Source of the DNA: Streptomyces sp. NBC_00224 | Lineage (GTDB): Bacteria > Actinomycetota > Actinomycetes > Streptomycetales > Streptomycetaceae | Reading direction: 5' to 3' | DNA length: 64,000 nucleotides | Assembly: GCF_041435195.1 (NCBI RefSeq) | Contig: NZ_CP108106.1 | Span: 3,472,001-3,536,000 of the forward strand | Shown: positions 4,854 to 31,107 of the stretch, one piece after another | Layout: the number at the start of each line of letters is the position of its first letter | Numbering within the stretch: the stretch's first letter is position 1 | The notes under the pieces: model-generated | Databases searched by the model: none | Told to the model about the DNA's origin: nothing | Seen by the model: the letters and a program-made list of their open reading frames with translations, nothing else | Position numbers and translations under genes: made by a program

Positions 4854-4858
4854 TACTG

Positions 4859-4931
4859 TGGAGCTAAGGAGAATTGAACTCCTGACCTCCTGCATGCCAT
4901 GCAGGCGCTCTACCAACTGAGCTATAGCCCC
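4859..4931 (-). tRNA. tRNA-Ala (anticodon GGC), copy 1
   Basis: A 73-nt cloverleaf starting GGGGCTATAGCTCAG and ending TTAGCTCCA. The anticodon stem CCTGC/GCAGG encloses loop ATGGCAT, which gives anticodon GGC. The acceptor stem has the G3:U70 wobble pair and A73, the identity elements for alanyl-tRNA synthetase. CCA is not encoded. It is identical in sequence to the copy at 9286-9358. Confidence 0.97.
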
Positions 4932-5048
4932 TTGTTCTGTTTTCCGCCCGGTTTCCCCTGGCGACATCGAGAACATTACACGGTCCCCCCGGCACTCCAC
5001 CAAATCGGTTGCCGTTCTGTACGGACAGGGCCGGTAACGTCCCCTTTC

Positions 5049-6275
5049 GTGACCGTGAACGTCCTCGCGCACACCGCCGCCCGTCTCACCCCCGTCCGCC
5101 GCCCCGTGGCGCTTGCCGCCGCGGCCTGTCTGATCTCTTTCGCCACCTTTTGGGTCGCCCAGCGGGCCGCCGGTGTCTCGATGATCGACCTGATGGTCTA
5201 CCGGGCGGAGGGAGGGGCCGTACGGGCCGGGGCGGACCTGTACGCGATGCGCGCCACGCGCGCGCGGCTGCCCACCACCTACCCGCCGTTCGCCGCGCTG
5301 CTGTTCACACCGCTGACGCTGCTGGGCGTGCCCGAGATGCGCACGCTCGCCACGGCTGCGAACCTCGCCCTCCTTGTCGCGCTCGCCCACCTTTCGCTGC
5401 GGCTCGCGGGACGGGGGCGGCCGGGGGCCGCGCTGTGGGTGGCGGCGCTCACGGTGTGGTGCGAGCCGGTGTGGACGACCCTGCGCTATGGCCAGATCAA
5501 TCTGCTGCTCGCGGTCGCCGTCCTGTGGGACCTGACCCGGCGGGCCGGCCACCGGGGGGCGGGCGCGGGCATCGGCCTCGCGGCCGCGGTGAAGCTCACG
5601 CCCGCGCTGTTCGCACTCTTCCTGCTGCTCACCGGTCTCGTACGCGCGCGTGGAGCGGGCTGGAACCAGTGGCTGCGGCAGGCGGCGACGGCGCTGGCGG
5701 TGTTCGCCGGGGCGACGCTGGCGGCCGCTCTCGTGCTGCCCGCCGACTCGCGCCGCTTCTGGACGTCGACGGTGTTCGAGACGAGCCGGGTCGGCCTCGC
5801 CGAGGACACCGCCAACCAGTCGCTGCGCGGTGTGCTGGCCCGGCTGCTGCACACCGGCGACCCGGGGTCCTGGTGGACGGCCGCCGCGGCCCTCACGGCG
5901 GCGCTGGGACTGTATGCGGCGGTACGGGCCGAGCTGCGCGGGGAGCGGGCCCGGGCGGTGCTGTGCTGCGCGGCCACGGCGCTCCTGGTGAGCCCGGTCT
6001 CCTGGTCGCACCACTGGGTGTGGTGCGTGCCCGGGCTCGTGCTGCTCGGGGCCCACCGGATCCGCGGGGCCGTCGCCGCCGCCCTGGTCTTCGGCTCGTA
6101 CGCCCTGTGGTGGGTGCCGCACGGGGCGGGCCGCCCCGAACTGGCCCAGAACGGGCTGCAGATGGCGCTCTCGGCGCTCTACCCGCTGGCCGGGGCCGCC
6201 TTCGTGGCGGCGGTGGCGCTCGGGCCGCGGGGCGGGGCGCCGCTCAGGCCGTGGCGAACGAGTAGAACCTCTTGA
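5049..6275 (+). CDS. GT87/DUF2029 polyprenyl-phosphate-mannose-type glycosyltransferase
   Basis: A 408-aa multi-pass membrane protein of the GT-C fold, like actinobacterial alpha-mannosyltransferases that use polyprenyl-phosphate mannose. Near the N-terminus are an Asp-containing loop (MIDLMVYRAEGGAVRAG) and the TYPPFAALL motif typical of DUF2029, followed by about eight more membrane segments. The open frame extends back through the tRNA gene, so the annotated start is GTG at 5049 (or GTG at 5055); neither has a clear ribosome site. Its 3' end overlaps the convergent zinc-ribbon gene by about 30 bp. The acceptor (lipoglycan, phospholipid mannoside or protein) cannot be told from sequence. 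Confidence 0.75.
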   Translation: MTVNVLAHTAARLTPVRRPVALAAAACLISFATFWVAQRAAGVSMIDLMVYRAEGGAVRAGADLYAMRATRARLPTTYPPFAALLFTPLTLLGVPEMRTLATAANLALLVALAHLSLRLAGRGRPGAALWVAALTVWCEPVWTTLRYGQINLLLAVAVLWDLTRRAGHRGAGAGIGLAAAVKLTPALFALFLLLTGLVRARGAGWNQWLRQAATALAVFAGATLAAALVLPADSRRFWTSTVFETSRVGLAEDTANQSLRGVLARLLHTGDPGSWWTAAAALTAALGLYAAVRAELRGERARAVLCCAATALLVSPVSWSHHWVWCVPGLVLLGAHRIRGAVAAALVFGSYALWWVPHGAGRPELAQNGLQMALSALYPLAGAAFVAAVALGPRGGAPLRPWRTSRTS

Positions 6276-10654: not shown

Positions 10655-12394
10655 TTACTTGATCTTGTAGTCCTTGCCGAGCACCACGGTGACATCCGCG
10701 TTCGCCGCGGCCTTGCCCTGCTTGACCGCACCGGCCGGCAGACCCAGCGTCTTGGCGACCTCTTCGGCCTTCGCCTTCTGCGCCGCGTCACCGTAGGTGA
10801 CGGAGGACGACGCCGCCGTACTCGCGCCGCCCGCGTCAATGAAGGCGTAGCCGCCGTTGACCAGGTCGACCCGGGCCTTGTCGGCCGCCTTCGGGTTGCC
10901 GCTGGCGTTGCTGACACCGACGCGGACCGCGGCGCCCTTGTCGGGGGCCGTGACCGAGCCGCCCAGGATGTCCTTGACCACGCTGTCACTGGCCTGCGCG
11001 CTGAGCGTGCCGTCCTGCTGGACCGGCAGCGCCGCGGTCTTGTAGGCGCCGACCTTGGCGTGCTCGGCGAGCTTGGCCAGCGAGGCGCCGAGGTCCGACT
11101 CGGGCAGCGAGGGGTCGAGGATCTGCGCCAGCGTCTGCACGGTGATCGTCGCGGCCTTGGGGTCGTCCGAGATCTTGCGCAGCACCCCGTACATCACCTG
11201 CCCGAACCGCTGCAGCTGCTTGGCCTCGGCCTCGCCGGGCCCCTTGTACGTGGCGTACGCCACAGCCATCTGCCCGGTCAGCGTCTGGTCGTCACCCTTC
11301 TTCACCACGGGGGGCGCGCCCGCCTTGGTGCCCGGCACATCGGCATCCGTACTGATGTCGATGTTGCCGACCAGGTCGACGAGGTTCTCCAGGAAGGGCG
11401 TGTCCAGACGCCAGGTTCCGGTGATCTTGGTGCCGAGCAGGGTGCCGAGCGCCTCGCGGGTGCCCTGCGAGCCGTCGCCGTCGACGGACTTGCCGAGCGT
11501 GGTGCGGGTGCCGTCGTCGTTGGAGACGGCGAGGGAGTTGGGCAGCAGGACGGTGGTGCCCTGCTTGGTGGTCGCGTTGTTGACGAGCAGCGCCGTGGAG
11601 GTGCCGCCCTTCGCGGTGTTGTGCAGATGGACGACGATCACGTCCCGCTTCTGCGCCCCGGTCGCGACCGCCGGCTTCTTGGAGTCCGAGGACGAGGAGA
11701 CGCCGGGCAGCTTGCCGGCCGACCAGAGGTAGCCGACGCCGCCGACCGCCGCGAGGGCGAGGACCACGACGAGCGCGACCACCCGGTTGCGGCCGCGGCG
11801 CCGCGCCTCCTCGCGCCGCTCGGTGCGGCTCTCGGTGAACTTCAGCCAGTCGATGACGTCTTCGGAGTCCTCGTCGGGCTCCTCGATGAACGAGAACTGC
11901 TCGGTGCGGTAGTCGCGTTCGTCCTTGCGCTGCTGCGGCAGCACCGGGATCTGCTCGGCCACCGGCTCGGGCTCGGGCTCGGCTTCCCGTACGGGGGCCT
12001 GCGCCTGGCCGGACGCCTGGCCGGCCTGCTGGGCCGGGGGCTGCTCGCGGTTCCACTGCTGCGTGGTGTCGTAGCCGTACCCCTGGTTCTGCTGGGGCAC
12101 GGACGGCTGCGCGGACTGGCCGTACGCGTCGTAGCCGTAGTCGTACGAGGGCTGCTGCTGGGCGTACGGGTCGTACCCGTAACCGCCCTGCTGCTGGCTC
12201 TGCTGCCCTTGGTGATCCTGCTGGGGCGGCTGGGCTTGCTGAGACTGGTGGGTCTGCTGCGGCTGGGCCTGGGCGTACGGGTCGTACGAAGCCTGCTGGG
12301 GCACCTGTTGGTACACCGGCTGGCCGTACTCGTCATAACCGACAAGTTGCACCTGCGGCGCATAGGGGTCGTACGGGTCCTGTCGGTCGTTCAC
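10655..12394 (-). CDS. LytR-CpsA-Psr (LCP) family wall-polymer ligase with LytR_C domain
   Basis: A 579-aa type II membrane protein. The cytosolic N-terminus (about 190 residues) is rich in Gln, Pro and Tyr with YDPYAQ-type repeats. It is followed by basic RRGRNR and a membrane helix VVALVVVLALAAVGGVGYLW, then an extracellular LCP domain (DVIVVHLHN..., QRFGQVMYGVLRKI) and a C-terminal LytR_C domain (VRVGVSNASGNPKAADKARV). LCP enzymes attach anionic glycopolymers to peptidoglycan. GTG at 12394 has AAGGG well placed; GTG at 12412, overlapping the nadD stop, would add six residues. From memory, the S. coelicolor homologue (SCO2578) is PdtA, linked to attachment of polydiglycosylphosphate. Confidence 0.85.
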   Translation of the reverse strand: MNDRQDPYDPYAPQVQLVGYDEYGQPVYQQVPQQASYDPYAQAQPQQTHQSQQAQPPQQDHQGQQSQQQGGYGYDPYAQQQPSYDYGYDAYGQSAQPSVPQQNQGYGYDTTQQWNREQPPAQQAGQASGQAQAPVREAEPEPEPVAEQIPVLPQQRKDERDYRTEQFSFIEEPDEDSEDVIDWLKFTESRTERREEARRRGRNRVVALVVVLALAAVGGVGYLWSAGKLPGVSSSSDSKKPAVATGAQKRDVIVVHLHNTAKGGTSTALLVNNATTKQGTTVLLPNSLAVSNDDGTRTTLGKSVDGDGSQGTREALGTLLGTKITGTWRLDTPFLENLVDLVGNIDISTDADVPGTKAGAPPVVKKGDDQTLTGQMAVAYATYKGPGEAEAKQLQRFGQVMYGVLRKISDDPKAATITVQTLAQILDPSLPESDLGASLAKLAEHAKVGAYKTAALPVQQDGTLSAQASDSVVKDILGGSVTAPDKGAAVRVGVSNASGNPKAADKARVDLVNGGYAFIDAGGASTAASSSVTYGDAAQKAKAEEVAKTLGLPAGAVKQGKAAANADVTVVLGKDYKIK

Positions 12395-12408
12395 CGGGTG
12401 CCCTTCTC

Positions 12409-13029
12409 TCACTCGCCGCGGTAGAGCTGGCGCTTGTCGATGTAGCGCACCACGCCGTCCGGAACCAGATACCAGACCGGGTCGCCCTGCGCGACCCTCT
12501 CCCGGCAGTCCGTCGACGAGATCGCCAGGGCGGGCACCTCCACCAGCGACACCCCGCCCTCGGGCAGACCGTCGTCCGTCAGTATGTGGCCGGGCCGGGT
12601 CACCCCGATGAAGTGGGCGAGCGAGAACAGCTCGTCCACGTCACGCCAGGTGGTGAGGATCTGCGAGAGCGCGTCGGCGCCGGTGATGAAGAACAGGTCC
12701 GCGTCGCTGTTGAGGGCGCGCAGATCCCGCAGCGTGTCCACGGTGTACGTCGCGCCGCCGCGGTCGATGTCGATCCGGCTCACCGAGAACTGCGGGTTGG
12801 AGGCGGTCGCGATGACCGTCATCAGATACCGGTCCTCGGGCGCGGAGACGTTTTTGTGGCTCTTCTGCCACGGCTGCCCCGTCGGTACGAACACGACCTC
12901 GTCCAGATGGAACTGAGAGGCCACCTCGCTGGCGGCCACCAGGTGTCCGTGGTGGATCGGGTCGAACGTTCCGCCCATCACGCCGATGCGCCGCTTGACC
13001 GGACCGGTAGGCACTTCCTGCTCTCCCAT
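12409..13029 (-). CDS. nadD: Nicotinate-nucleotide adenylyltransferase
   Basis: A 206-aa enzyme of NAD synthesis that adenylates nicotinate mononucleotide. The nucleotidyltransferase signature [15 protein letters not shown] lies near residue 20 and ISSTDCRER, the second ATP-binding motif, near the C-terminus. Length is typical. ATG at 13029 ([14 protein letters not shown]) is chosen over upstream starts, which would run into a spacer. It heads the nadD-LCP-rsfS-phosphatase group, all on the minus strand with little or no spacing. Confidence 0.94.
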
Positions 13030-18926: not shown

Positions 18927-20054
18927 TCAGGGGTGGAGAACGACCAGATCGTCCCTGTGTACGACTTCGCGCTCGTACTCCGGGCCGAGTTCGCGCGCGA
19001 GCTCGCGGGTGGAGCGGCCGAGGAGTTGGGGGATCTCCTTGGCGTCGAAGTTGACGAGTCCGCGGGCGACGGCGCGGCCCGCGGTGTCGCGGAGTTCGAC
19101 GGGGTCGCCGGCGCTGAACTCGCCCTCGACGGCGGCGATTCCGGCGGGCAGCAGGGAGGAGTGGCGTTCGACGACGGCGCGTACGGCTCCGTCGTCGAGG
19201 ACGAGGTGGCCCTGCGGGGTGGAGGCGTGGGCGAGCCACAGGAGGCGGTCGGCGGAGCGGCGGCCGGTGCGGTGGAAGTAGGTGCCGGTGTCGCGTCCGG
19301 CGAGGGCGTCGGCGGCCTGGCTGGCGGAGGTGAGGACGACGGGGACGCCGGCTGCGGCGGCGATGCGGGCGGCCTCGACCTTGGTGACCATGCCGCCGGT
19401 GCCGACGCCTGCTTTGCCGGCGCTGCCGATCTGTACGTGGGCGATGTCGTCGGGGCCGTGGACTTCGCCGATGCGGGTGGTGCCGGGTTTGCTGGGGTCG
19501 CCGTCGTAGAGCCCGTCGACGTCGGAGAGCAGGACGAGCAGGTCGGCGCGGACGAGGTGGGCGACGAGGGCGGCGAGCCGGTCGTTGTCGCCGAAGCGGA
19601 TCTCGTCGGTGGCGACGGTGTCGTTCTCGTTGACGACGGGCAGAGCGCCCATGGCGAGGAGCTGGTCGAGGGTGCGGTAGGCGTTGCGGTAGTGGGCGCG
19701 GCGGCTGGTGTCGTCGCTGGTGAGCAGGACCTGTCCGACGCGTACGCCGTAGCGGGCGAAGGAGGCGGTGTAGCGGGCGACGAGGAGGCCCTGGCCGACG
19801 CTGGCGGCGGCCTGCTGGCGGGCGAGGTCGGTGGGGCGGCGGCGCAGGCCGAGGGGGGCGAGTCCGGCGGCGATGGCGCCGGAGGAGACCAGCACTATTT
19901 CCTTCTCGCCGCCGCTGCGGGCTTTGGCGAGGACGTCGACGAGGGCGTCGACGCGGTCGGCGTCGAGGCCGCCGGATGCGGTGGTGAGGGAGGACGAGCC
20001 CACCTTGACGACGATCCTGCGGGCCTGGGTCACGTACTGCCTTGCCACTGTCAC
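18927..20054 (-). CDS. proB: Glutamate 5-kinase
   Basis: A 375-aa kinase for the first committed step of proline synthesis. The N-terminal amino-acid-kinase fold shows VVKVGSSSLTTASGG and VLVSSGAIAAGLAPLG, and the substrate/nucleotide region VVNENDTVATDEIRFGDND and LLSDVDGLYDGDPS. Residues about 285-375 are a C-terminal PUA domain, giving the full-length form of the enzyme. The start is GTG at 20054. In most actinomycetes it follows obg; here galE and the glycan genes separate the two. Confidence 0.95.
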   Translation of the reverse strand: MTVARQYVTQARRIVVKVGSSSLTTASGGLDADRVDALVDVLAKARSGGEKEIVLVSSGAIAAGLAPLGLRRRPTDLARQQAAASVGQGLLVARYTASFARYGVRVGQVLLTSDDTSRRAHYRNAYRTLDQLLAMGALPVVNENDTVATDEIRFGDNDRLAALVAHLVRADLLVLLSDVDGLYDGDPSKPGTTRIGEVHGPDDIAHVQIGSAGKAGVGTGGMVTKVEAARIAAAAGVPVVLTSASQAADALAGRDTGTYFHRTGRRSADRLLWLAHASTPQGHLVLDDGAVRAVVERHSSLLPAGIAAVEGEFSAGDPVELRDTAGRAVARGLVNFDAKEIPQLLGRSTRELARELGPEYEREVVHRDDLVVLHP

Positions 20055-20177: not shown

Positions 20178-21152
20178 TCAGTCGCGCGGGTGGCGCAGCA
20201 GCCAGCCCTCCCAGGCGGAGGTGATCATGGCGCGGATGTCGTGGTGGGCGCTCCAGTCGAGTTCCTTGGTGATGAGCTCGGCGGAGGCGACGACGCGGGC
20301 CGGGTCGCCGGGGCGGCGCGGGGCGACTTCGGGGGCGGGCTCGGTGATGCCGCTGACCTCGCGGATGATGTCGACCATCTCGGCGACGGAGGCGCCTTCG
20401 CCGCGGCCGATGTTGAGGATGAGGGCGGCGCTGGGGTCGGCGGTGAGCCGGCGGGCGGCGGCGACGTGCGCGGTGGCGATGTCCTCGACGTGGATGTAGT
20501 CGCGGACGCAGGTGCCGTCGGGGGTGGCGTAGTCGTCGCCGAAGATTAGGGGTGCCTTGCCCTCGGTGAGGCGCTCGAAGACCATCGGGACGAGGTTGAA
20601 GATCCCGGGGTCGCCGAGCTCGGGGGAGGCGGCGCCGGCCACGTTGAAGTAGCGCAGCGAGGCGGTGGCCATGCCGTGGGCCTTGCCGACGGCGCTGACG
20701 AGCCATTCGCCCGCGAGCTTGGTCTCGCCGTACGGGCTCATCGGCAGGCACTCGGTCTGCTCGGTGACGAGGTCGACGTCGGGCATGCCGTAGACGGCGG
20801 CGGAGGAGGAGAACAGGAAGCGGCGTACGCCGGCTTCGGCGGCGGCCTCCAGGACCGTGCGCAGGCCTTCGACGTTCTCGCGGTAGTAGTGGAGCGGGCG
20901 TTCGACGGATTCGCCGACCTGCTTCTTGGCGGCGATGTGGATGACGCCGTCCACGTCGTTCTCGCGCAGTACGCGGTCGAGGACGTCGCGGTCGAGGACG
21001 GTGCCGTGCTCCAGGCGGACGCCTTCGGGCAGCCGGGCCGGGTCTCCGGTGCTGAGGTCGTCGAGGACGACGACCTGCTCCCCGCCGTCGACGAGGGCCT
21101 TCACCACGTGAGATCCGATGTAGCCGGCACCGCCTGTGATCATCCAAGTCAT
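20178..21152 (-). CDS. galE: UDP-glucose 4-epimerase
   Basis: A 324-aa short-chain-dehydrogenase-fold epimerase interconverting UDP-glucose and UDP-galactose (possibly the N-acetyl forms too). The NAD-binding GGAGYIGSHV is at the N-terminus, SSSAAVYG holds the catalytic Ser, and SPYGETKLAGE holds the YxxxK pair. The start is ATG at 21152. It lies beside the Stealth/deacetylase genes, so it may supply UDP-galactose for a surface glycan, although it ends with its own terminator and is not in one operon with them. Confidence 0.9.
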   Translation of the reverse strand: MTWMITGGAGYIGSHVVKALVDGGEQVVVLDDLSTGDPARLPEGVRLEHGTVLDRDVLDRVLRENDVDGVIHIAAKKQVGESVERPLHYYRENVEGLRTVLEAAAEAGVRRFLFSSSAAVYGMPDVDLVTEQTECLPMSPYGETKLAGEWLVSAVGKAHGMATASLRYFNVAGAASPELGDPGIFNLVPMVFERLTEGKAPLIFGDDYATPDGTCVRDYIHVEDIATAHVAAARRLTADPSAALILNIGRGEGASVAEMVDIIREVSGITEPAPEVAPRRPGDPARVVASAELITKELDWSAHHDIRAMITSAWEGWLLRHPRD

Positions 21153-21325
21153 ACGGACAGTCTAGGAGGCCGGACCCGCCGACCCGGCCTGCTGTGACTT
21201 TTCGTACGAACGTGAAGGCGGCGTAAGCACGACCGCGTGGAAGCCGCGTGGAGGCCCGCGCGGGGGTCTGCCCGGAAGTCCGCTCGGGCGTGCGGAGGTC
21301 GCGTACGGAAGTGGCATGCGGAAGA

Positions 21326-21350
21326 GGCGTACGGGATGGTCCCGTACGCC
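21326..21350 (-). terminator. Terminator after the PIG-L lipoprotein gene
   Basis: Perfect 11-bp stem GGCGTACGGGA/TCCCGTACGCC with loop TGG, 50 nt after the stop. It lies in a 248-bp gap without genes. Confidence 0.85.
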
Positions 21351-21400
21351 CCTGTTCGCTCCCGGTCCGCCCGGCTTCGTCCGCCGGTGCGGTGTGTCGG

Positions 21401-23560
21401 TCAGACGGTGCCCGCGCGCGGCGGGACCCTGGTGACGGCGGGGGTGGTGTTCAGGCCGAGCGTGACCAGGGCGACGCCCGCGCTGGCTCCCTGGACGACG
21501 GCGGGGGCACCGACCATGAAGCCGGAGGACGCGTCGCCGTGGAGGGTGACCTGCTTGCCGCTGTCGACCATCTCGATGGAGCCGGTGCCGCTGCGCGAGC
21601 TGAGCATGACGCCGCCGGTGGCGAGGTCCTGGCCGTCGACGAGGGCGACCGGGCCGTAGCCGGTGACCTTCTGGTCGGGCAGTTCGGTCCAGCGGCCGGC
21701 CTGGCCGCCGCGCAGCTGGGCGACGTTGATCTGGTCGCTGGAGGGCTTGTGGTAGGCGAGCAGGACGGAGCCGTCGTCGGCGGTGGCCGCGTCGGGTGCG
21801 TCGCCGGGCCGGGTCTTGAGGCCGCGGGCGCCGCGCACCATGGCGCCGCCTGCGTCCTTCTGGGTCCAGTGCTCGACCCAGCCGAAGGTGGAGCCGAAGA
21901 CGTGGACGCGGCCGTCGCCGTCGACCGCGGCGGCCAGGCCCTCCTGGAGCTGTCCGCCGCCGGGCAGCTTCTGCCACGGCGACCAGGTGCCCTGCTTGTC
22001 GCGCACCCGGGTGCTGATGCCCTTGGCGGCGTTGCGCACGAAGACGTGGACGGTGCCGTCGGGGGCGGTGACCGCGGTGGGCGGGCCGGTGAGGCGGCTG
22101 CGGCGGGGGTCGGTCTCGGGGTTGCCGAGGCTGGTCCACCGCTCTTCGAAGTCGCCGCCGGCGCTTTTCTGCTGCAGGACGACTATCTCGCGGGTGTCGT
22201 CCTTGTCGGTGGCACCCAGGTTGGTGAAGCGCAGGCCGAAGACGAGGTGGCGTCCGTCGGGGGCGGCGATGGCGCTGAGGGCGGGGGCGAGCGGGCCGCC
22301 GCCGAGGTCCTCGGCCGCGCCCCAGCCGCCGCTGTAGGGGCCGGACTCGCGCCAGCGGGCGGCGCGGGTGCCGAGCACGGCGTACGCGCTCATCCGGCCG
22401 TCCTTGTCGACGACGACCTTCGGGCCGGCCGTCGGGTAGCGGCGGTGGGTGGAGCGGACCCAGCCCTTCTTGGACTTGAGGACGCCGTTGACGCCGACCG
22501 AGTAGTCGCCGCAGCCGGAGGCGTTGCCGCACTGCCAGCTGGAGGCGCCGCCGTAGGCGTTGAGGTACTCGGTCTTCTGGTGGACGGTGTCGTTGGGCAG
22601 GTTGTAGGGCCAGCGCTGGTTGTAGTAGCCGCGGAACGCCTCGGTGAGGAAGCCCGGGGTGCGCGCGCCCTGGGGGGTGCCCTGGCCCCACTGGGCGAGG
22701 GCGCGCCAGGTGAAGAGGGCGACCGCCGTGTGGTCGGGGTGGTCGGAGTAGCCGACCTGGTCGCTGCCGCGCGGGTGCAGCTTGTCGTGGACCTGGGCGT
22801 CCGGGTCCGGGTCGAGGGTGCGCACCAGCGTGGGCCGGTACTTGCGCATCAGGAACAGCAGCGCGTCGGTGAGCTCGTCGCGGCTGTAGGTGTACTTCTC
22901 GCGGACCGGGGACTCCGGGGTGGGCTGGGTGCGCAGGACCACGCCGGGGGTGTTCCACAGCTGGGTCATGCCGACCCAGCCGCGGCCGGTCTTCTCGTGC
23001 ATCCGCACACCGAGGAAGATCAGCTCGGCGCGGCGGCCGTTGTACTCCAGGACGTTGAGCTCGGCCTCGCGCCCGCCCGGCAGCTTCAGGGCGGTGCGGG
23101 TCCACGGCGTGAACAGGGTCGCGCCGAGCATCCGGGCGTACGCCTGGCGAAGGCCCTGCTGGCGCGCGGAGACGTAGGCGGGCACGTCGGGGCGGGCCTT
23201 GGGCTCGCCGGGTGCCTGGTTGACGCCGAAGGAGCCGCCGCCGGTGACGTACACGGAGACGACCGGGACGCCTCGCTCGATGGTGTGGAGCGTGTCGGGG
23301 TTCATGAAGAACAGGTCGTCGTCCGGGTGCGCGACGATCGCCATGGCGAGCGGCCGGCCCGGGGTGTCGAAGCTGCTGCGGTGGTCGACCGGCAGCAGCG
23401 AGACGGGCTTCGGTGGTTCACTTGTGACAGCAGCGCCTCTGGCCGACGGGTGCTTGCTGTCGCACCCGGCGATCGCACCGGCTGCCACTACCCCCGCCAT
23501 CGAAGCCAGCACGGCACGCCGGGAGGCCACTTGGCGTCCCATCTTCGGCCAGCGTCCCAT
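21401..23560 (-). CDS. Tat-exported lipoprotein: PIG-L/LmbE-type deacetylase with C-terminal beta-propeller
   Basis: A 719-aa secreted lipoprotein. The signal has a twin arginine (ASRRAVLASMAG) and a lipobox ending AIAGC, so it should be exported folded and lipid-anchored. Residues about 70-300 are the PIG-L zinc deacetylase: AIVAHPDDDLFF gives the AHPDDE-type motif, and SDHPDHTAV the second ligand pair. Residues about 340-719 hold repeated beta-blades of sialidase/lectin type, recognisable by recurring WG/W-x-G and DGRVHVFG-like motifs (VTAPDGTVHVFVRN, AAVDGDGRVHVFGS). Likely it deacetylates an N-acetylhexosamine in a wall glycan, with the propeller binding sugar. It is divergent from the GT4-Stealth operon. 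Confidence 0.8.
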   Translation of the reverse strand: MGRWPKMGRQVASRRAVLASMAGVVAAGAIAGCDSKHPSARGAAVTSEPPKPVSLLPVDHRSSFDTPGRPLAMAIVAHPDDDLFFMNPDTLHTIERGVPVVSVYVTGGGSFGVNQAPGEPKARPDVPAYVSARQQGLRQAYARMLGATLFTPWTRTALKLPGGREAELNVLEYNGRRAELIFLGVRMHEKTGRGWVGMTQLWNTPGVVLRTQPTPESPVREKYTYSRDELTDALLFLMRKYRPTLVRTLDPDPDAQVHDKLHPRGSDQVGYSDHPDHTAVALFTWRALAQWGQGTPQGARTPGFLTEAFRGYYNQRWPYNLPNDTVHQKTEYLNAYGGASSWQCGNASGCGDYSVGVNGVLKSKKGWVRSTHRRYPTAGPKVVVDKDGRMSAYAVLGTRAARWRESGPYSGGWGAAEDLGGGPLAPALSAIAAPDGRHLVFGLRFTNLGATDKDDTREIVVLQQKSAGGDFEERWTSLGNPETDPRRSRLTGPPTAVTAPDGTVHVFVRNAAKGISTRVRDKQGTWSPWQKLPGGGQLQEGLAAAVDGDGRVHVFGSTFGWVEHWTQKDAGGAMVRGARGLKTRPGDAPDAATADDGSVLLAYHKPSSDQINVAQLRGGQAGRWTELPDQKVTGYGPVALVDGQDLATGGVMLSSRSGTGSIEMVDSGKQVTLHGDASSGFMVGAPAVVQGASAGVALVTLGLNTTPAVTRVPPRAGTV

Positions 23561-23760
23561 GTCCTTTTCCCACTCCCCGCTCCACGTTCATCTGCGATCA
23601 AGCAGACCGCCACCCGAGGAGAGGGCGGAAACTTCATTTGGGTTCCACTCGATGAAGCAATCGTGATGCATCGATAGAATTACGAAGCAACTTGCCGATC
23701 TTACGCATTATTGGCAGCATGCAACGCTGACCATTAGCCCAGACGAGAGCTAGGTTCACC
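23561..23760. promoter_or_regulatory. AT-rich divergent promoter region
   Basis: A 200-bp gap between the deacetylase and the glycan operon. Around 23640-23745 the base composition falls to about half A+T, far below the surroundings, with ATGCAT palindromes and a TGCC-N16-GGCA dyad. Likely divergent promoters and regulator sites; no gene seen. Confidence 0.6.
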
Positions 23761-24762
23761 GTGAGTGACTCACTGCTGCCCTATGCGGTGGGCGCCGCCA
23801 AGCGGGCGCGCCGCGCGGCAGTACGTATGCGCCGACGTGTCGAGCAGATGCATACCGTACCGGCCATCGACGGAGTCAAGCCGCGGCCGCTGCTCAAGGC
23901 CGTGCACTTCTCGGTCTCCGGTGGGCGCACCCTCAACTTCGCGGTGACGTTCCCGCGCCGCCCCGGTGCGGTCGGTGCGGCCCATCTGGAGATGTCGCGC
24001 GGGCGCAAGGTCGTCCACGTGGAGCTGGAGCAGGAGCCGCAGAGTGACGGAAGTCTCCTTCTGACGGCCACCGCGCCGCTGCGCCATGACGATCCGTCGG
24101 AGACCGGCACCCGCGGTCCGGTGCTCTCGTCCGGTATGTGGCGCATGGAGGTCGTGGTCACCGAAAGTGACGGCCGTGAGCTGCGGGCGAAGATCGCGTC
24201 GGCTCCCGTGGAGTCGTCCGACGGTCCCACCCTGTCCACTTCGCCATCACCCACCAGCGGCGCCGTCTTCCGTCCGGTGCGTTCGGTCGACGGCCGCTCG
24301 ATGCTGAACGTGCGCGGCCCGCGCCACCAGGCCGAGCTCTCCTCGTTCGAGCTGCGCTGGGACCGGATCGTGGTGCACGGCCGGCTCATCGCGCCGAAGG
24401 CCCCCGTCGAGGAGTACGTCGCGGAGGCGGTGCTGCGGCGCAGCAGCAAGGCGGCCGCGGCCACCGTGGAGTGGGACGGCGACCGCTTCACCTTCGACGT
24501 ACCGCTCGCCGAGATGGCGGTCGGCCACACCACCCGCACCTGGGACATGCATCTGAGGGCCGGTGGGAACCGGATCAAGATCGCCCGGCGGCTGACCGAT
24601 GTGCGTCACCCCAAGCAGGTCTACCGGACACCGTTCCGTATCGTCGCTCTCGACAGCGGCGCGCTCGCGCGGGTGCACGCCTATGTCACCCCGGCCGGCG
24701 TGCTCGCCGTGTCCTGTACCGGATTCGGAACCGCCCCCCGTGGCGCAGAGGAAGTTGCATGA
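23761..24762 (+). CDS. Hypothetical beta-rich protein, first gene of the Stealth operon
   Basis: A 333-aa protein with no signal peptide or clear membrane helix. The N-terminus is very basic (AKRARRAAVRMRRRVEQ). Two regions look like repeated beta-sandwich units: LKAVHFSVSGGRTLNFAVTF and SSFELRWDRIVVHGRLIA. The second resembles linker modules seen in some actinobacterial teichoic-acid polymerases (a W-D-x-x-x-V-x-G pattern), but this is only an impression. The start is GTG at 23761; its TGA overlaps the ATG of the GT4-Stealth gene, so the products are translationally coupled and probably work together. Confidence 0.6.
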   Translation: MSDSLLPYAVGAAKRARRAAVRMRRRVEQMHTVPAIDGVKPRPLLKAVHFSVSGGRTLNFAVTFPRRPGAVGAAHLEMSRGRKVVHVELEQEPQSDGSLLLTATAPLRHDDPSETGTRGPVLSSGMWRMEVVVTESDGRELRAKIASAPVESSDGPTLSTSPSPTSGAVFRPVRSVDGRSMLNVRGPRHQAELSSFELRWDRIVVHGRLIAPKAPVEEYVAEAVLRRSSKAAAATVEWDGDRFTFDVPLAEMAVGHTTRTWDMHLRAGGNRIKIARRLTDVRHPKQVYRTPFRIVALDSGALARVHAYVTPAGVLAVSCTGFGTAPRGAEEVA

Positions 24763-27581
24763 AGATCACGTTTCTGCTCACCTGGGGCGACGAGATGGGC
24801 GGCACCGAGATGGCCGCCTACACCCAGGCGATCCATCTCGCTCCCCGGCACGACGTCGAGGTGCTGAGCGTCTTCAAGACCCGCCCCGAGCCGTTCTTCT
24901 CGGCCGCCCAGCAGGTCGAGCGGCGCTACCTGGTGGACAGGACCGGATCCTACGGACGCCCGGTGCGCACCAGCGCCCTGGACGAGAACGCCTGCCGGAC
25001 GCTGGAGTCGCTGCCGAGCGAACTCATCAAGCCGTCCTGGGAGTCCACCTTCGACCGGCTCTCCGACATCGAGATGACGGCCGCCCTCGGCTCCCTCGAC
25101 TCCGACGTGCTGGTCACCACCACCCCGGCGCTGCTCGCGGCGGCCGCCGAGCTCGCCCCGTCCCGGGTCGTCACCGTGCACCAGGAGCACCGCGCCTCCC
25201 AGCTGCGCGGCGTCTCTGGTGAGCCGCTCCTCGTCTACGGCCCGCGCGTCGACGCGCTGGTGTCGCTGACCGAGCGCACCAACGACTGGTTCTCCGACTC
25301 GCTGCGCGAGGCCGCCCCGGAGCTCGCCGCGATCCCCAACGCGGTGCCCGACGGCTACCGTCCGCGCGCCGACCTGGAGTCCAAGACGATCGTCCTGGCT
25401 GCCCGGATGACCCCGGAGAAGCAGCTGGACCACGCCATCCACGCCTTCCAGCGGATCTCCGCGGACTTCCCCGACTGGCAGCTGCGGATCTTCGGCGACG
25501 GCCCGCAGGAGGTGCGTCTGCGCCGCCTCGTCGAGGGTCTGGGCATGCACTCGCGCATCGAACTGGTCGGCCGCTCCTCGCAGATGGAGCAGGAGTGGGC
25601 CAAGGCCAGCGTCTGTCTGCTGCCCTCGCGCAACGAGGCCTTCCCGCTGGTGCTCCTGGAGATGTTCGCGGCCGGCGTGCCGGTCATCGCGTACGACATC
25701 GTCACCGGGCCCGCCGAGATCATCCGCCACGACGTGGACGGTCTCCTCGTGCCGCCCGGCGACATCGACTCGCTGGCCGCCGCGATGTCCCGCCTGATGG
25801 GCGAGGACGACACCCGGCACGCGTTCGGCAAGGCCGCTCGCAAGGGCGTGTACGAGCGGTTCGGCGGCGAGGACATCACCGCCCGCTGGGAGCAGCTCTT
25901 CACCAAGCTGGTCGCCCGCCGCGACACCCCCGAGCGCCTGGCCCAGCGCGCCGACCGCACCGCGCTGCGCATCGCGGCCGGCGGCACCCGCAGCTTCAGC
26001 GTCGCCGCCCCCGTCTCGGCCCTGTCGAACTCGGCGGACGAGCAGAAGGCCCGCGAGGTGATGATCCAGGCGCAGGACCGCACCGGGACGCTGATCCGGT
26101 CGGCCGGCCGCCTCGCCGAGCAGCGCGACGACATCAACGGCCCGCGCATGGCGCAGATCAACCTGGAGATCACCGCCAAGGTCCTGGAGGACGCGGGGAT
26201 CCCGTACATCCTGCTGCGCCACGACGCCGGCGTCGCCCACCGCGTCGCCGTCCCCGTCGAGCACCGCCGCCGGGTGATCGAGGCCATGTCCACCGCCCTG
26301 CACGGCAAGCCGGTCTACGCCGAGCTGGTCACCCCGCGCGGCGCCGCGCCCGGCGCGGTCCTCGCCGAGCGGCTCGGCGACGTGGGCGAGGTCGCCGGCC
26401 TGCGCGTGTTCAAGCCGATCACCTCCGAGAGCCGCACCCTGCGGTACGGACCGGCCTACGGCTGCAGCCTGGAGTTCTGGGCCGAGTCGGAGGAGGACGG
26501 CTGGCGCGAGACGCCCCGGCTGACCACCCTGCTCGGGCGGCGCCTGCCGAACCTGGAGGCCACGGCCAAGCTGCGGGTCGGCGAGCGCGACTACCCGACG
26601 CTCGCGCAGTTCACCAAGCAGCTGATGTGGGACGTCGACTACCCGATCGACGTCGTCTACACCTGGGTCGACGACACCGACCCGGCCTGGCAGCAGCGCC
26701 GCGACTCGGTGCGCCGCAGCCGGGACATGCCGACCAACGACGCCGACAGCGGCGACGTGCGCTTCCGCAACCGCGACGAGCTGCGCTACTCGCTGCGCTC
26801 CCTGGAGATGTTCGCGCCCTGGGTGCGCACCATCTACCTGGTCACCGACGACCAGACGCCGGACTGGCTGGACACCGAGCAGCACGGCATCAAGGTCGTC
26901 AGCCACCGCGAGATCTTCAAGGACCAGGCCTGGCTGCCGACGTTCAACTCGCACGCCATCGAGAGCCAGCTGTACCGGATCGAGGGCCTGGCCGAGCACT
27001 TCCTCTACCTCAACGACGATGTGTTCATCGGCCGTCCGCTCAACCCGTCGTCGTTCTTCCTGAGCAACGGCGTGGCCAAGTTCTTCCGCTCGCCCACGGC
27101 CGTCCCGCCGACCGAGCCGTCCCCGGACGACGAAGGCTACTTCGCGGCCGCGAAGAACAACCGGGCCCTGTTGGAGGAGGCGTTCGGGCGGACCACGACG
27201 ACCAGCTTCCTGCACGCGCCGCACCCGCTGCGCCGCAGTGTGCTGACCGAGATCGCCGACAAGTTCCCGGCCGAGGTGGGCCGTACCGCGGCCAACCCGT
27301 TCCGCGCCAACTCGGACCTGTCGATCACCTCGTCGCTGCACCACCACTACGGCTACCTGATCGGCAGCTCGGTGCCGAGCGCGATCTCTTGCAGCTACAT
27401 CAACGTGGGCAACTACGACCACCACACGGTGCTGACCCGGCTGCTCGCCGAGCGCGCCCACGACACGTTCTGCATCGGTGAGTCCGCCGACGCGGAGGTG
27501 TCGGTGGAGGAGCAGGACCGCGTGCTGCGGGCGTTCCTGAGCGCCTACTTCCCGGTGAAGTCGCGGTTCGAGCGGGACTGA
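24759..27581 (+). CDS. GT4 glycosyltransferase fused to a Stealth (sugar-phosphate transferase) domain
   Basis: A 940-aa cytosolic or peripheral protein. Residues 1-385 are a GT4 (GT-B) glycosyltransferase: nucleotide-binding GDEMGGTEMA near the N-terminus and the ExxxxxxxE motif in NEAFPLVLLEMFAAG near residues 293-301. A linker module (about 385-620) resembles the N-terminus of the other Stealth protein here. Residues about 625-940 are Stealth: CR1 IDVVYTWVDD, CR2 RDELRYSLRSLEMFAPWV and IYLVTDDQTPDWL, CR3 HAIESQLYRI and HFLYLNDDVF, then CR4. Stealth enzymes transfer hexose-1-phosphate in capsule polymers. The fusion can thus make a sugar plus sugar-1-phosphate repeat. The ATG overlaps the preceding stop. 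Confidence 0.85.
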   Translation: MKITFLLTWGDEMGGTEMAAYTQAIHLAPRHDVEVLSVFKTRPEPFFSAAQQVERRYLVDRTGSYGRPVRTSALDENACRTLESLPSELIKPSWESTFDRLSDIEMTAALGSLDSDVLVTTTPALLAAAAELAPSRVVTVHQEHRASQLRGVSGEPLLVYGPRVDALVSLTERTNDWFSDSLREAAPELAAIPNAVPDGYRPRADLESKTIVLAARMTPEKQLDHAIHAFQRISADFPDWQLRIFGDGPQEVRLRRLVEGLGMHSRIELVGRSSQMEQEWAKASVCLLPSRNEAFPLVLLEMFAAGVPVIAYDIVTGPAEIIRHDVDGLLVPPGDIDSLAAAMSRLMGEDDTRHAFGKAARKGVYERFGGEDITARWEQLFTKLVARRDTPERLAQRADRTALRIAAGGTRSFSVAAPVSALSNSADEQKAREVMIQAQDRTGTLIRSAGRLAEQRDDINGPRMAQINLEITAKVLEDAGIPYILLRHDAGVAHRVAVPVEHRRRVIEAMSTALHGKPVYAELVTPRGAAPGAVLAERLGDVGEVAGLRVFKPITSESRTLRYGPAYGCSLEFWAESEEDGWRETPRLTTLLGRRLPNLEATAKLRVGERDYPTLAQFTKQLMWDVDYPIDVVYTWVDDTDPAWQQRRDSVRRSRDMPTNDADSGDVRFRNRDELRYSLRSLEMFAPWVRTIYLVTDDQTPDWLDTEQHGIKVVSHREIFKDQAWLPTFNSHAIESQLYRIEGLAEHFLYLNDDVFIGRPLNPSSFFLSNGVAKFFRSPTAVPPTEPSPDDEGYFAAAKNNRALLEEAFGRTTTTSFLHAPHPLRRSVLTEIADKFPAEVGRTAANPFRANSDLSITSSLHHHYGYLIGSSVPSAISCSYINVGNYDHHTVLTRLLAERAHDTFCIGESADAEVSVEEQDRVLRAFLSAYFPVKSRFERD

Positions 27582-27593
27582 GACAGCTGATAC

Positions 27594-27640
27594 AAGAAGG
27601 GCCCGCCCCAGACCGGAAGGTCTGGGGCGGGCCCCTTCTC
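27594..27640. terminator. Bidirectional terminator between Stealth genes
   Basis: Stem GGGCCCGCCCCAGACC/GGTCTGGGGCGGGCCC (27599-27614 with 27619-27634), flanked by AAGAA and CTTCTC, so it has a U-tract in both directions. It serves both convergent genes. Confidence 0.9.
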
Positions 27641-27652
27641 GTTCTGCGTCCG

Positions 27653-29389
27653 CTAATCCTTCTCGAACGGGCTCCGCACCGGGAAGTACGCGTCGAGGAA
27701 CGGTGTGATCAGGTCCTTCTGCTCGTGCACGTCCTGCTCGGTGGAGACCGTGTCGTTGACGCAGAACACCGTCTTGTCCCGGTTGGCGAGCAGCCGGCCG
27801 AGCCGGGTCTCCGTCCACGGGTGCGTCAGGTCGAGGTAGGTGTACGGGAGTTCGGAGGGCACCGCGCGCTGGGTGTGGTACGCGTAGTAGTGGTGTAGCG
27901 ACGACGAGATGGAGATGTCGTCCTCGGAGCGGAACCGGCTCGCCTCCGTGTAGCGGTACTCCGGCTCGAACTCCGTCTCGATCTCGGTGAGCAGGCTGCG
28001 GCGCAGCGGGTGCGGCATGTGCTTCATCTTCTGCACGACCACCGCCCCGTACCGCTCCTCGATCAGCCGGCGGTTGTTCTTGCCCGCGGCGGCCACCGGC
28101 GGGTCCTCGGGGGTGCGCGAGCCCAGCGGTACGAGGGCGGGCGACGGGAAGAACTTGGTGAGGCCGCTGGAGAGGAAGAAGTCCTGCGGGGTGACCTCGT
28201 TGCCGAGCATCACGTCGTCGTTGAAGTACAGGAAGTGCTCGGCCAGGCCGTCGATGTGGTGGAGCTGGCTCTCGATGGCGTGCGAGTTGAAGGTCGGCAG
28301 CAGGCCCGGGTCGCGGAAGATCTCCTTGTGGCTGACGACCTTGATGCCGGGCTGGGTGGTGTCCAGCCAGTCGGGGGTCTGGTCGTCGGTCACCAGGTAG
28401 ACGTTGCGCACCCACGGCGCGTACATGTGCAGCGAGCGCAGCGAGTAGCGCAGCTCGTCGCGGCTCAGATAGCGCGCGGCGTTGGCTGACTCGGCGTGGT
28501 AGGTCTCGCCCGCGAACTGGGCGCGGCGGCGCAGCCAGGCCGGGTCGGCGCCGTTCACCCACGTGTAGACGACGTCGATCGGGAAGGTGATCTCGTCGGT
28601 GGGGTGGATGGCGAACTCGGCGCGGGTGCGCACCTGGGCGGCGTCGGGGGCCTCGCGGGGGGCGAGGTGGGTGAAGTACGCCTCGGAGACCTGCGCCGTG
28701 GGGCCCTCGGCGGGGAGCGTCTCGGCGAGCTTGCCGACGCGCGGCGGCACCAGCTGGCCGTCCTCCTCGTGCCAGAACTCGACGTCGCAGCCGTAGCGGT
28801 TGCCGAGGGTGAGGCGGTGCGTGGCGTCCGTGCGGTACCAGGTGACCCTGACGGTCCCGGCGGTCTTGAACCGGCGCCAGGTGGAGTCCTCGTACCCCGG
28901 CAGGGAGGTCTCGGGGACCGGGTTGTTGCCCTTGACGTGGGTGACGTAGCCGGGCTGGTCGCCGCAGAGCGACTCCAGCACCTTCAGCACGGCCGTACGG
29001 TCGTCCTCGCGGACGGCGACGGCTGCGGCGGTCTCCGAGCGGCCGCGCACGCAGAAGTGGTCGAGGCCGGCCGCGTGCAGGGCGCGCAGCACGGTGTCGA
29101 GGTTGGCGCGGCGGGCCTGGAGCGGGGTCACGCCGGGGGTGACGAGGGCGACCTTGGGGTCCTTGCCGACGTGCACGACCGTGCGGTCGGCGCCGGAGGC
29201 GAGGGTCTGGTAGCGCTTGGTGACGCGGGCGGCGCGCATCTTCTCGGCGACGGCCGCGCCGCCGGCGATACGCATCTTGACGCGGCGCCGCATGTCGGCG
29301 TCGACCTGCGAGACGATCGCGCGCCGCACACTCTCGGGCACGGCCCGCCGGTAGACCCCCAGCAGTCGCGGTGCCTCGGGATTACGCAC
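27653..29389 (-). CDS. Stealth-family sugar-phosphate transferase
   Basis: A 578-aa Stealth protein, GTG start at 29389. CR1 IDVVYTWVNG starts near residue 268; CR2 RDELRYSLRSLHMYAPWV and VYLVTDDQTPDWL follow; CR3 HAIESQLHHI and HFLYFNDDVM; then CR4. Residues 1-265 match the linker of the GT4-Stealth protein in scattered blocks (YGCDVEFWHEEDG versus YGCSLEFWAESEEDG), so the two share a longer common module. It has no second catalytic domain. It could start or cap a glycosyl-phosphate chain or add a different sugar-1-phosphate. It is convergent with the fusion gene. Confidence 0.85.
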   Translation of the reverse strand: MRNPEAPRLLGVYRRAVPESVRRAIVSQVDADMRRRVKMRIAGGAAVAEKMRAARVTKRYQTLASGADRTVVHVGKDPKVALVTPGVTPLQARRANLDTVLRALHAAGLDHFCVRGRSETAAAVAVREDDRTAVLKVLESLCGDQPGYVTHVKGNNPVPETSLPGYEDSTWRRFKTAGTVRVTWYRTDATHRLTLGNRYGCDVEFWHEEDGQLVPPRVGKLAETLPAEGPTAQVSEAYFTHLAPREAPDAAQVRTRAEFAIHPTDEITFPIDVVYTWVNGADPAWLRRRAQFAGETYHAESANAARYLSRDELRYSLRSLHMYAPWVRNVYLVTDDQTPDWLDTTQPGIKVVSHKEIFRDPGLLPTFNSHAIESQLHHIDGLAEHFLYFNDDVMLGNEVTPQDFFLSSGLTKFFPSPALVPLGSRTPEDPPVAAAGKNNRRLIEERYGAVVVQKMKHMPHPLRRSLLTEIETEFEPEYRYTEASRFRSEDDISISSSLHHYYAYHTQRAVPSELPYTYLDLTHPWTETRLGRLLANRDKTVFCVNDTVSTEQDVHEQKDLITPFLDAYFPVRSPFEKD

Positions 29390-29667: not shown

Positions 29668-31107
29668 CTAGAACGGGTTGAAGTCGTCGAACTCCTGCTG
29701 AGCGTCGTCCTTCTCGGCGTCCCGGTCCCGGCGGCGCTGAGCGGCAGGGCGGGGCGCCTCAAGGCGGTGGTCCTCGCCACGGCGGCCCAGCATCTCCGCA
29801 CCCGCCATCATCGTCGGCTCCCAGTCGAAGACGACCGCGTTCTCCTCGGGGCCGATGGCCACGGCGTCGCCCGCGCGGGCGCCCGCCTTCATCAGCTTGT
29901 CCTCGACGCCGAGGCGGCTGAGGCGGTCCGCGAGGTAGCCGACGGCCTCGTCGTTGTTGAAGTCGGTCTGGCGGATCCAGCGCTCCGGCTTCTCGCCGCG
30001 CACCCGGTAGACCTCGGCCGCCTCGTCGTAGGTGACCGTGAAGCCCGCGTCGTCGACCGCCTTGGGGCGGATCACGATCCGGGTGGCCTCCTCGACGGGC
30101 TTGGCGGCACGCGCCTCGGACACGATCTTGGCGAGGGCGAAGGAGAGCTCCTTGAGGCCGGTGCGGGCGACCGCGGAGACCTCGAAGACCTGGTAGCCAC
30201 GCTCTTCCAGGTCGCCGCGGATCATGTCCGCGAGGTCCTGGCCGTCCGGGATGTCGATCTTGTTGAGGACGACGATGCGGGGCCGGTCGTCGAGGCCGCC
30301 GTACTGCTTCAGCTCGTCCTCGATGACGTCGAGGTCGGAGACCGGGTCACGCTCGGACTCAAGGGTGGCGGTGTCCAGGACGTGGACGAGCACCGAGCAG
30401 CGCTCGACGTGCCGCAGGAACTCAAGGCCCAGGCCTTTGCCCTGGCTGGCGCCGGGGATGAGGCCGGGGACGTCGGCGATGGTGTAGACGGTCGAGCCCG
30501 CGGTGACCACGCCCAGGTTCGGGACGAGCGTGGTGAACGGGTAGTCCGCGATCTTCGGCTTGGCGGCGGACAGGACGGAGATCAGCGAGGACTTGCCCGC
30601 GCTCGGGTAGCCCACCAGGGCCACGTCGGCGACGGTCTTGAGCTCCATGACCACGTCACGGGCCTCGCCGGGCTCGCCGAGCAGCGCGAAGCCGGGGGCC
30701 TTGCGCCGGGCGGAGGCGAGCGCCGCGTTGCCGAGGCCGCCGCGGCCGCCCTGGCCGGCGACGAAGGTGGTGCCCTGGCCGACGAGGTCGGCGAGGACGT
30801 TGCCGTCCTTGTCGAGGACGACCGTGCCGTCCGGGACGGGCAGGATCAGGTCCTGGCCTTCCTTGCCGGTGCGGTTGTCGCCGGCGCCGGGCTGGCCGTT
30901 GGTGGCCTTGCGGTGCGGGCTGTGGTGGTAGTCGAGGAGCGTGGTCACCGACTGGTCGACGACCAGGATGACGTCGCCGCCACGGCCGCCGTTGCCGCCG
31001 TCGGGGCCGCCGAGCGGCTTGAACTTCTCCCGGTGTACGGAGGCGCAGCCGTGGCCTCCGTTACCCGCGGCGACGTGCAGCTCGACGCGGTCCACGAAGG
31101 TGGTCAT
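29668..31107 (-). CDS. obg: GTPase Obg/CgtA
   Basis: A 479-aa ribosome-assembly and stress GTPase. The glycine-rich Obg fold is at residues 1-160 ([29 protein letters not shown]). The G domain has G1 GYPSAGKSS, a G2-region [15 protein letters not shown]3 DVPGL and G4 NKID. Residues about 340-420 form the OCT domain, and the tail is charged ([17 protein letters not shown]). ATG at 31107 follows GGAGG. It lies downstream of rplU-rpmA, separated by a strong hairpin. In Streptomyces Obg affects the onset of aerial growth. Confidence 0.96.

Follow-up and report, generated by a model that had tools for sequence, protein, structure and literature searches.

What does a Streptomyces gene cassette with two predicted Stealth sugar-1-phosphate transferases make, and which of its proteins builds the chain? 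The question is raised by a 64,000-nucleotide stretch of the Streptomyces sp. NBC_00224 chromosome (NZ_CP108106.1, positions 3,472,001 to 3,536,000; hereafter the window, to which all coordinates refer), where a GT4-Stealth fusion, a partner protein and a second Stealth protein are encoded next to obg. A sequence-only reading had proposed a locus for a wall polymer of the polydiglycosylphosphate (PDP) type known from S. coelicolor. We found that the cassette very probably encodes a wall or surface sugar-phosphate polymerase. We also favour, with some reserve, a product akin to teichoic acids in which sugar and sugar-1-phosphate alternate, for which we infer donors, acceptors, step order, product and cellular role. 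The evidence comes from gene content, predicted folds, catalytic residues, a conserved gene set, a variable wall-polymer locus and a natural block replacement. The cassette genes are:

24759..27581, forward strand: GT4-Stealth fusion, 940 amino acids (GT4 about 1-388, middle domain 390-628, Stealth CR1-CR4 629-940); proposed bifunctional polymerase
23761..24762, forward strand: partner protein without a Pfam match, 333 amino acids, N-terminal helix and two beta-sandwich domains; proposed scaffold or oligomerisation module of the polymerase
27653..29389, reverse strand: second Stealth protein, 578 amino acids, CR1-CR4; proposed priming or side-chain sugar-1-phosphate transferase
21401..23560, reverse strand: PIG-L deacetylase lipoprotein of exported type with a C-terminal PLL/PHL-type beta-propeller lectin; proposed optional modifier
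20178..21152, reverse strand: GalE-type UDP-sugar 4-epimerase (TIGR01179); proposed optional donor supply

Protein domains were assigned with Pfam and NCBIfam searches, and the source genome measures 9.18 Mb. The frames and domains of all five genes, described earlier as galE, a Tat-lipoprotein deacetylase, a partner coupled to GT4-Stealth and a second Stealth gene, were confirmed at these coordinates. Stealth_CR2 matched twice only in the whole genome, in the fusion and in the second Stealth protein, and the four TagF (PF04464) matches all lie elsewhere, at 3.94-3.96 Mb. The closest named locus is that of S. melanogenes, with a 99% identical fusion.

The fusion matched GT4 family PF00534 (4.5e-38) and all four Stealth regions, CR1-CR4, above cut-off. 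Its start at 24759 is backed by conservation (M1, I3 and T4 invariant in 40 aligned proteins), and its gene shares a 4-base overlap (ATGA) with the partner gene. The GT4 half has a predicted fold like that of TarM/BshA-type GT4 enzymes, with the GT-B fold and an EX7E motif with basic residues present. The Stealth half is predicted to fold like the GlcNAc-1-phosphotransferases GNPT and CpsY. In CpsY, which uses UDP-GlcNAc as donor, R419 is essential and E305A, N322A and D324A cut activity 200- to 500-fold (PMC10668966). Equivalents of these four residues were kept, by alignment, in both Stealth proteins, and those of the fusion (Glu, Asn, Asp and Arg) in 44/44 aligned loci. A retaining GT4 combined with Stealth would be expected to give alpha-Gal and alpha-GlcNAc-1-P, the anomers of PDP. 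The TagF-like domain PF04464 gave no match in the fusion up to E 1, so this chain would work like the TagF-like polymerases without being one of them. The middle domain (390-628) is the most divergent part of the fusion, with a mean identity of 50% over 44 loci. It is related to residues 1-268 of the second Stealth protein (26%, 2e-9), and a related domain stands before both Stealth domains.

The partner showed no Pfam or NCBIfam match up to E 1. Its two halves are predicted to fold like accessory domains of TarS, TarK/TarL and RmlT, with 6-11% sequence identity in the five best matches. In TarS and TarL such domains have a presumed part in holding or oligomerising the enzyme. Distances of fusion and partner were correlated at r 0.93 (43 loci), versus 0.79 for fusion and second Stealth (44 loci). 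For partner homologs the profile match was strong in family f17, at 99.6% with two sequences and 0.3% for the reversed control. It was weak in g39, another actinomycete genus, at 41.8% (E 2.7e-4) with three sequences and 0.4% for the reversed control.

Which polymer such an enzyme might make was approached through S. coelicolor, whose PDP is described as -6)-aGalp-(1-6)-aGlcpNAc-(1-P- (PMC11481543). SCO2578 is PdtA and SCO2579 nadD (PMC7831098), SCO2589 and SCO2590 bear the annotation CDP-glycerol glycerophosphotransferase and SCO2591 that of an amidase (PMC6629963), and SCO2592 is a glycosyltransferase counted with the wall-teichoic-acid genes (PMC3937824). The parts of PMC11481543 and PMC7831098 drawn on here name no PDP polymerase, and SCO2592 may have been proposed for PDP earlier. 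Among 295 Streptomyces genomes, G246 was nearest to S. coelicolor by KcsA (99%), and a second draw of 391 genomes gave none closer. The KcsA query was the S. coelicolor sequence; compared with PDB 1f6g, G246 KcsA differs at residues 9, 22, 27, 64 and 90, of which 27, 64 and 90 are presumably engineered in that entry.

Directly behind obg, G246 carries on one strand a second Stealth gene (57% identical to that of the window), a partner (34%) and a fusion (60%). This triad is followed by an FG-GAP protein and two GT2+TagF genes; beyond a weak TagF-like gene on the opposite strand come proB, proA, nadD and an LCP gene. The order from obg to LCP agrees with the printed order of the SCO2578-SCO2592 tags; the 594-amino-acid protein has FG-GAP repeats in Pfam, not the amidase annotated for SCO2591. 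SCO2592, which we take to be annotated as a Stealth protein, would on this gene order be the fusion. The chances that the S. coelicolor ortholog makes PDP are, in our estimate, about even, and for the window strain exactly PDP is somewhat doubtful. For the S. coelicolor type, PDP is thus the plausible leading candidate, whereas the case for it in the window strain is weaker. The proposed PDP-type locus held in part: the GT4-Stealth chain fits an alternating polymer and the triad stands behind obg in G246, but the window fusion is only 60% identical to that of G246 and its sugars may differ. A second cluster in G246 (L048, G246:C1:1868000-1887999), presumably in the SCO6020s region, holds three Stealth genes, of which one has a weak CR2, as well as a GT4-like frame, PIG-L and PLL-like propeller proteins.

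Several points weigh against the PDP assignment and the wider polymerase reading. The comparison rests on the sister G246, since none of the searched genomes was identified as A3(2) itself. By KcsA, G136 ranks third in closeness (96%), yet it was without any Stealth match, and a Stealth match occurred anywhere in the genome in 113/295 Streptomyces genomes. Two Stealth enzymes are encoded per Streptomyces cassette, versus one phosphodiester per PDP repeat, and no transporter was named in the cassette. The GT4 catalytic residues are nearly always kept; K221 is replaced in 5/44 loci and E293 in 3/44. In addition, GT2-TagF genes that could make sugar-phosphate polymers are present in the locus of the S. 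coelicolor type.

This last point leads to an alternative that we regard as rather unlikely, in which the neighbouring GT2-TagF genes (SCO2589/SCO2590 type) make S. coelicolor PDP and the Stealth cassette makes another, undescribed sugar-phosphate polymer. Two such genes stand beside the triad in G246, SCO2589 and SCO2590 carry the glycerophosphotransferase annotation given above, and hexose-phosphate transfer is described as possible for TagF-like domains (PMC5974469). Yet similar GT2-TagF genes (69-80% identity) were also present where the obg locus lacks Stealth (L067, L069, L070, L078 and L089). GT2 enzymes are of the GT-A type. In TagF-like polymerases GT-A goes with beta linkages (PMC5974469), whereas the Gal of PDP is alpha.

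Whether the product is attached to the wall was considered from the position of the cassette, which is bounded as follows, with a ligase candidate beyond:

29668..31107, reverse strand: obg, core flank of the cassette locus, matched in 295/295 Streptomyces genomes
18927..20054, reverse strand: proB, the other core flank, present in 38/40 obg-side regions of 20 kb
10655..12412, reverse strand: LCP-LytR_C protein of PdtA type, a general wall-polymer ligase candidate

We take the first two to be obg and proB, partly from position. The 40 regions were 20-kb stretches on the cassette side of obg. Of these, 20 came from genomes that lack a Stealth match altogether and 20 from genomes that have one at any position, a part of the second set having been selected for Stealth near obg. 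Where present, proB lay 2.5 to 17 kb from obg, and the obg-proB interval carries wall-polymer-type genes in the window and in the 40 regions. By rough typing, five regions were Stealth (all in the second 20), 18 TarIJ-like by length and a crude motif (Pfam gave IspD and SDR in the two such proteins scanned), 11 TagF/GT2 without these, and six had one weak TagF-like gene only. Two of the Stealth regions (L072 and L073) also hold TarIJ-like and TagF-like genes, and L080 and L081, typed TagF/GT2, each have an unlabelled gene of TarIJ-like length. The labels TagF1-4 derive from frames of the source genome's TagF loci, and the "TagF1" genes in L057 and L051 are GT2 only by Pfam. Variability of this neighbourhood is already known in print: a Streptomyces WTA (wall teichoic acid)/TUA locus anchored by the genes for ribosomal proteins L21/L27, with hypervariable glycopolymer genes that include TagF, TarIJ and utr, is reported in PMC13274773. 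The term Stealth is absent from the main text of that paper.

The LCP gene at 10655 matched LytR_C (1.9e-11), and its LCP part scored 19.9 bits, below the cut-off of 24.6. It is 61% identical to the G246 LCP next to nadD, which scores above cut-off (27.8 bits), and its position matches SCO2578-SCO2579. Specificity to the Stealth cassette is not supported, as 26 of the 29 obg-side regions with an LCP match (29/40) were without Stealth there; in the other 11/40 regions the fetched stretch may end short of that position. LCP 10655 was accordingly dropped as a dedicated cassette part.

A released exopolysaccharide or capsule, in place of a wall-anchored polymer, is unlikely as the product. It would accord with the capsule polymers made by characterised Stealth polymerases (PMC5974469), with obg missing from the fetched stretch in 31/44 tree rows, and with the g39 neighbours, which look unlike wall genes. 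Against it stand the wall-enzyme folds of the partner, a nearby LCP gene, and the siting of the cassette, both here and in G246, at the wall-teichoic-acid locus. Fusion clusters L091-L105 and L108, with no obg in the fetched stretch, form a separate branch in which many members carry free-standing propeller genes next to the Stealth ones.

The sequence-only reading does not say which Stealth protein polymerises, and this was weighed from the distribution of the two. The second Stealth protein has CR1-CR4 all above cut-off, a CpsY match of 1.2e-73, and E373, N390, D392 and R487 conserved in 44/44 aligned loci. It was encoded near the fusion in 47/47 Streptomyces loci with a fusion open reading frame, a set that includes the window, one identical pair and L020, matched only over residues 1-638. 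Across the class, 78/394 genomes had fusion matches at E 1e-60, many via one half only. In g39, a single Stealth_CR2 match was found in 8/8 genomes, in one frame with a GT4 part as listed for 7/8 and as seen by Pfam in the five scanned. The fusion is also the sole Stealth gene in G569. As the only Stealth gene in g39, the fusion can serve without the second protein, and it probably suffices as a bifunctional polymerase, with activity predicted. The g39 pattern supports the fusion as the putative polymerase and the second Stealth protein as a candidate for priming or for side-chain addition; capsule systems offer known examples of separate priming enzymes (PMC11666461). In five of six g39 loci (L112-L117) a neighbour looks by eye like part of an ATP-dependent DNA ligase.

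The reverse assignment, in which the second Stealth protein polymerises and the fusion only initiates chains, appears improbable. In its favour are the catalytic residues in both proteins and their constant pairing in Streptomyces. Distances in the 13 obg-side loci also correlate more closely with obg for the second Stealth (r 0.67) than for the fusion (0.50), with 0.85 between fusion and second Stealth. The fusion stands alone in g39 and G569, however, and is predicted to hold already both activities for a repeat.

The remaining two genes are not constant among the fusion loci. PIG-L matched PF02585 at 8.4e-13 (49.4 bits, cut-off 28.2), and its N-terminus (SRRAVLA, then AIAGC) reads by eye as a Tat-type lipoprotein signal. 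The metal motifs HPDD and HxDH start at 78 and 274, with H78, D81, H274 and H277 invariant in 18/18 aligned relatives. A profile of these 18 (from 23 loci with a full PIG-L open reading frame, leaving out L009 and those with long N-terminal overhangs) matched the PLL2 lectin 6rfz over the C-terminal part at 8.8e-20; the single-sequence match to PLL lectin was weaker (9.7e-6, no stretch significant alone). The deacetylase part occurred in 25/47 fusion loci, versus about 0.02 expected per 20 kb from nine PIG-L matches per 9.18 Mb genome, a co-occurrence that is not a probability, given the relatedness of the loci and the choice of some of them for their likeness to the window. In 10 more loci the best PIG-L-like match was a propeller-only gene. 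PIG-L was present in 7/8 members of the window's fusion clade and in 0/6 other obg-side tree rows.

The galE product scored 323.2 bits against TIGR01179 (cut-off 262.3). Two genes in the genome exceed this cut-off, the other copy scoring better. The substrate-gate position reads V in an ungapped by-eye comparison with the E. coli and human GalE motifs, so UDP-GlcNAc epimerisation may be possible. Neither galE nor PIG-L was found in the obg locus of G246. An essential role of galE as UDP-Gal source was dropped, given the second genome copy and this locus, and the roles given to galE and the deacetylase in the sequence-only reading do not look required. Both appear from gene content to be optional parts that are not cassette-specific.

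A comparison of the sister pair G174 (L072) and G129 (L073) revealed a change within the cassette. Their obg proteins are 99.4% and their second Stealth proteins 96.5% identical, with 94% DNA identity over 9.1 kb beyond the block, but the fusions are only 67% identical, and PIG-L and a close galE are in the block of G174 only. In the tree, the G129 fusion groups with that of G076 and the G174 fusion with the window's clade. The fusion/partner block was thus replaced between closely matching flanks, a natural allele replacement. That galE, PIG-L and the Stealth genes are fortuitous, unrelated neighbours is hardly credible. The absence of the first two from many fusion loci speaks for it; the frequency of PIG-L above and the joint difference of PIG-L and galE with the fusion block in this pair speak against it.

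We propose that in the cytoplasm lipid-linked GlcNAc would first receive a hexose in alpha linkage (galactose for the S. coelicolor type) from the GT4 half of the fusion. The Stealth half would then put a sugar-1-phosphate (GlcNAc-1-P from UDP-GlcNAc) on the hexose with release of UMP, the halves alternating. No separate linkage unit would be needed, since the chain could start on the GlcNAc of undecaprenyl-PP-GlcNAc. The two-sandwich partner may hold or oligomerise the polymerase, and the second Stealth protein may prime chains or add a side unit. Once exported, the chain would be joined to peptidoglycan by a PdtA-type LCP protein, and PIG-L, where present, may de-N-acetylate the polymer outside the cell. 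A further, speculative extension, which we also hold unlikely, makes obg-proB a serotype-like switching locus. Partner and GT4-Stealth would be swapped as a block with or without PIG-L/galE, and the lectin-bearing PIG-L would turn surface GlcNAc of the chain into GlcN, making the wall polymer zwitterionic. Such switching of polymer type and charge would alter recognition by lectin-guided umbrella toxins and phages. Wall polymers of this variable site are reported as umbrella toxin receptors (PMC13274773). The GT4-Stealth chain is a concrete candidate enzyme for PDP, a chemically known wall polymer of a model antibiotic producer with PdtA as reported ligase, and would, if correct, add a polymerase architecture beside the TagF-like ones.

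Other features of the window included one between the convergent fusion and second Stealth genes:

27599..27634, no strand: perfect, GC-rich inverted repeat of 16 pairs (14 G-C); possible two-way terminator

The scan overall was not above chance, with four terminator-like sites in the region versus 2.7 in shuffles. A sigma-70 promoter scan found none and is uninformative for Streptomyces. A frame for a GT87-family membrane glycosyltransferase lies at 4899-6275; its listed start overlaps tRNA-Ala (4858-4931, other strand), and the true start may be later.

Compared with known systems, the fusion resembles the TagF-like capsule polymerases in having two catalytic domains per chain, one adding a hexose and one a phosphate-linked unit. 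Cps7D and Cps3D are TagF-like/GT-B, and Cps1B and CslB GT-A/TagF-like, the GT-B version going with alpha linkages (PMC5974469). Domain mutants of Cps7D and of Cps1B have been shown to complement each other in trans. The window fusion differs in that its phosphotransferase half is Stealth, not TagF-like. With CpsY of M. tuberculosis and GNPT (GNPTAB) it shares CR1-CR4, catalytic residues and predicted fold, but among the sequence-matched PDB chains Stealth and GT4 occur on different proteins. The assay of CpsY used UDP-GlcNAc together with a glucan (PMC10668966). Unlike the accessory beta-sandwich domains of TarS, TarK/TarL and RmlT, the partner is a separate protein with an N-terminal helix. 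The WTA/TUA locus occupies the same chromosomal neighbourhood (PMC13274773), whereas the window cassette is of other predicted chemistry. The S. coelicolor region SCO2578 (PdtA)-SCO2592 is matched in order by its sister G246, with the triad behind obg, TagF genes, proB, nadD and LCP; the window differs from this type in having no TagF gene there, galE and PIG-L instead, and the second Stealth gene reversed.

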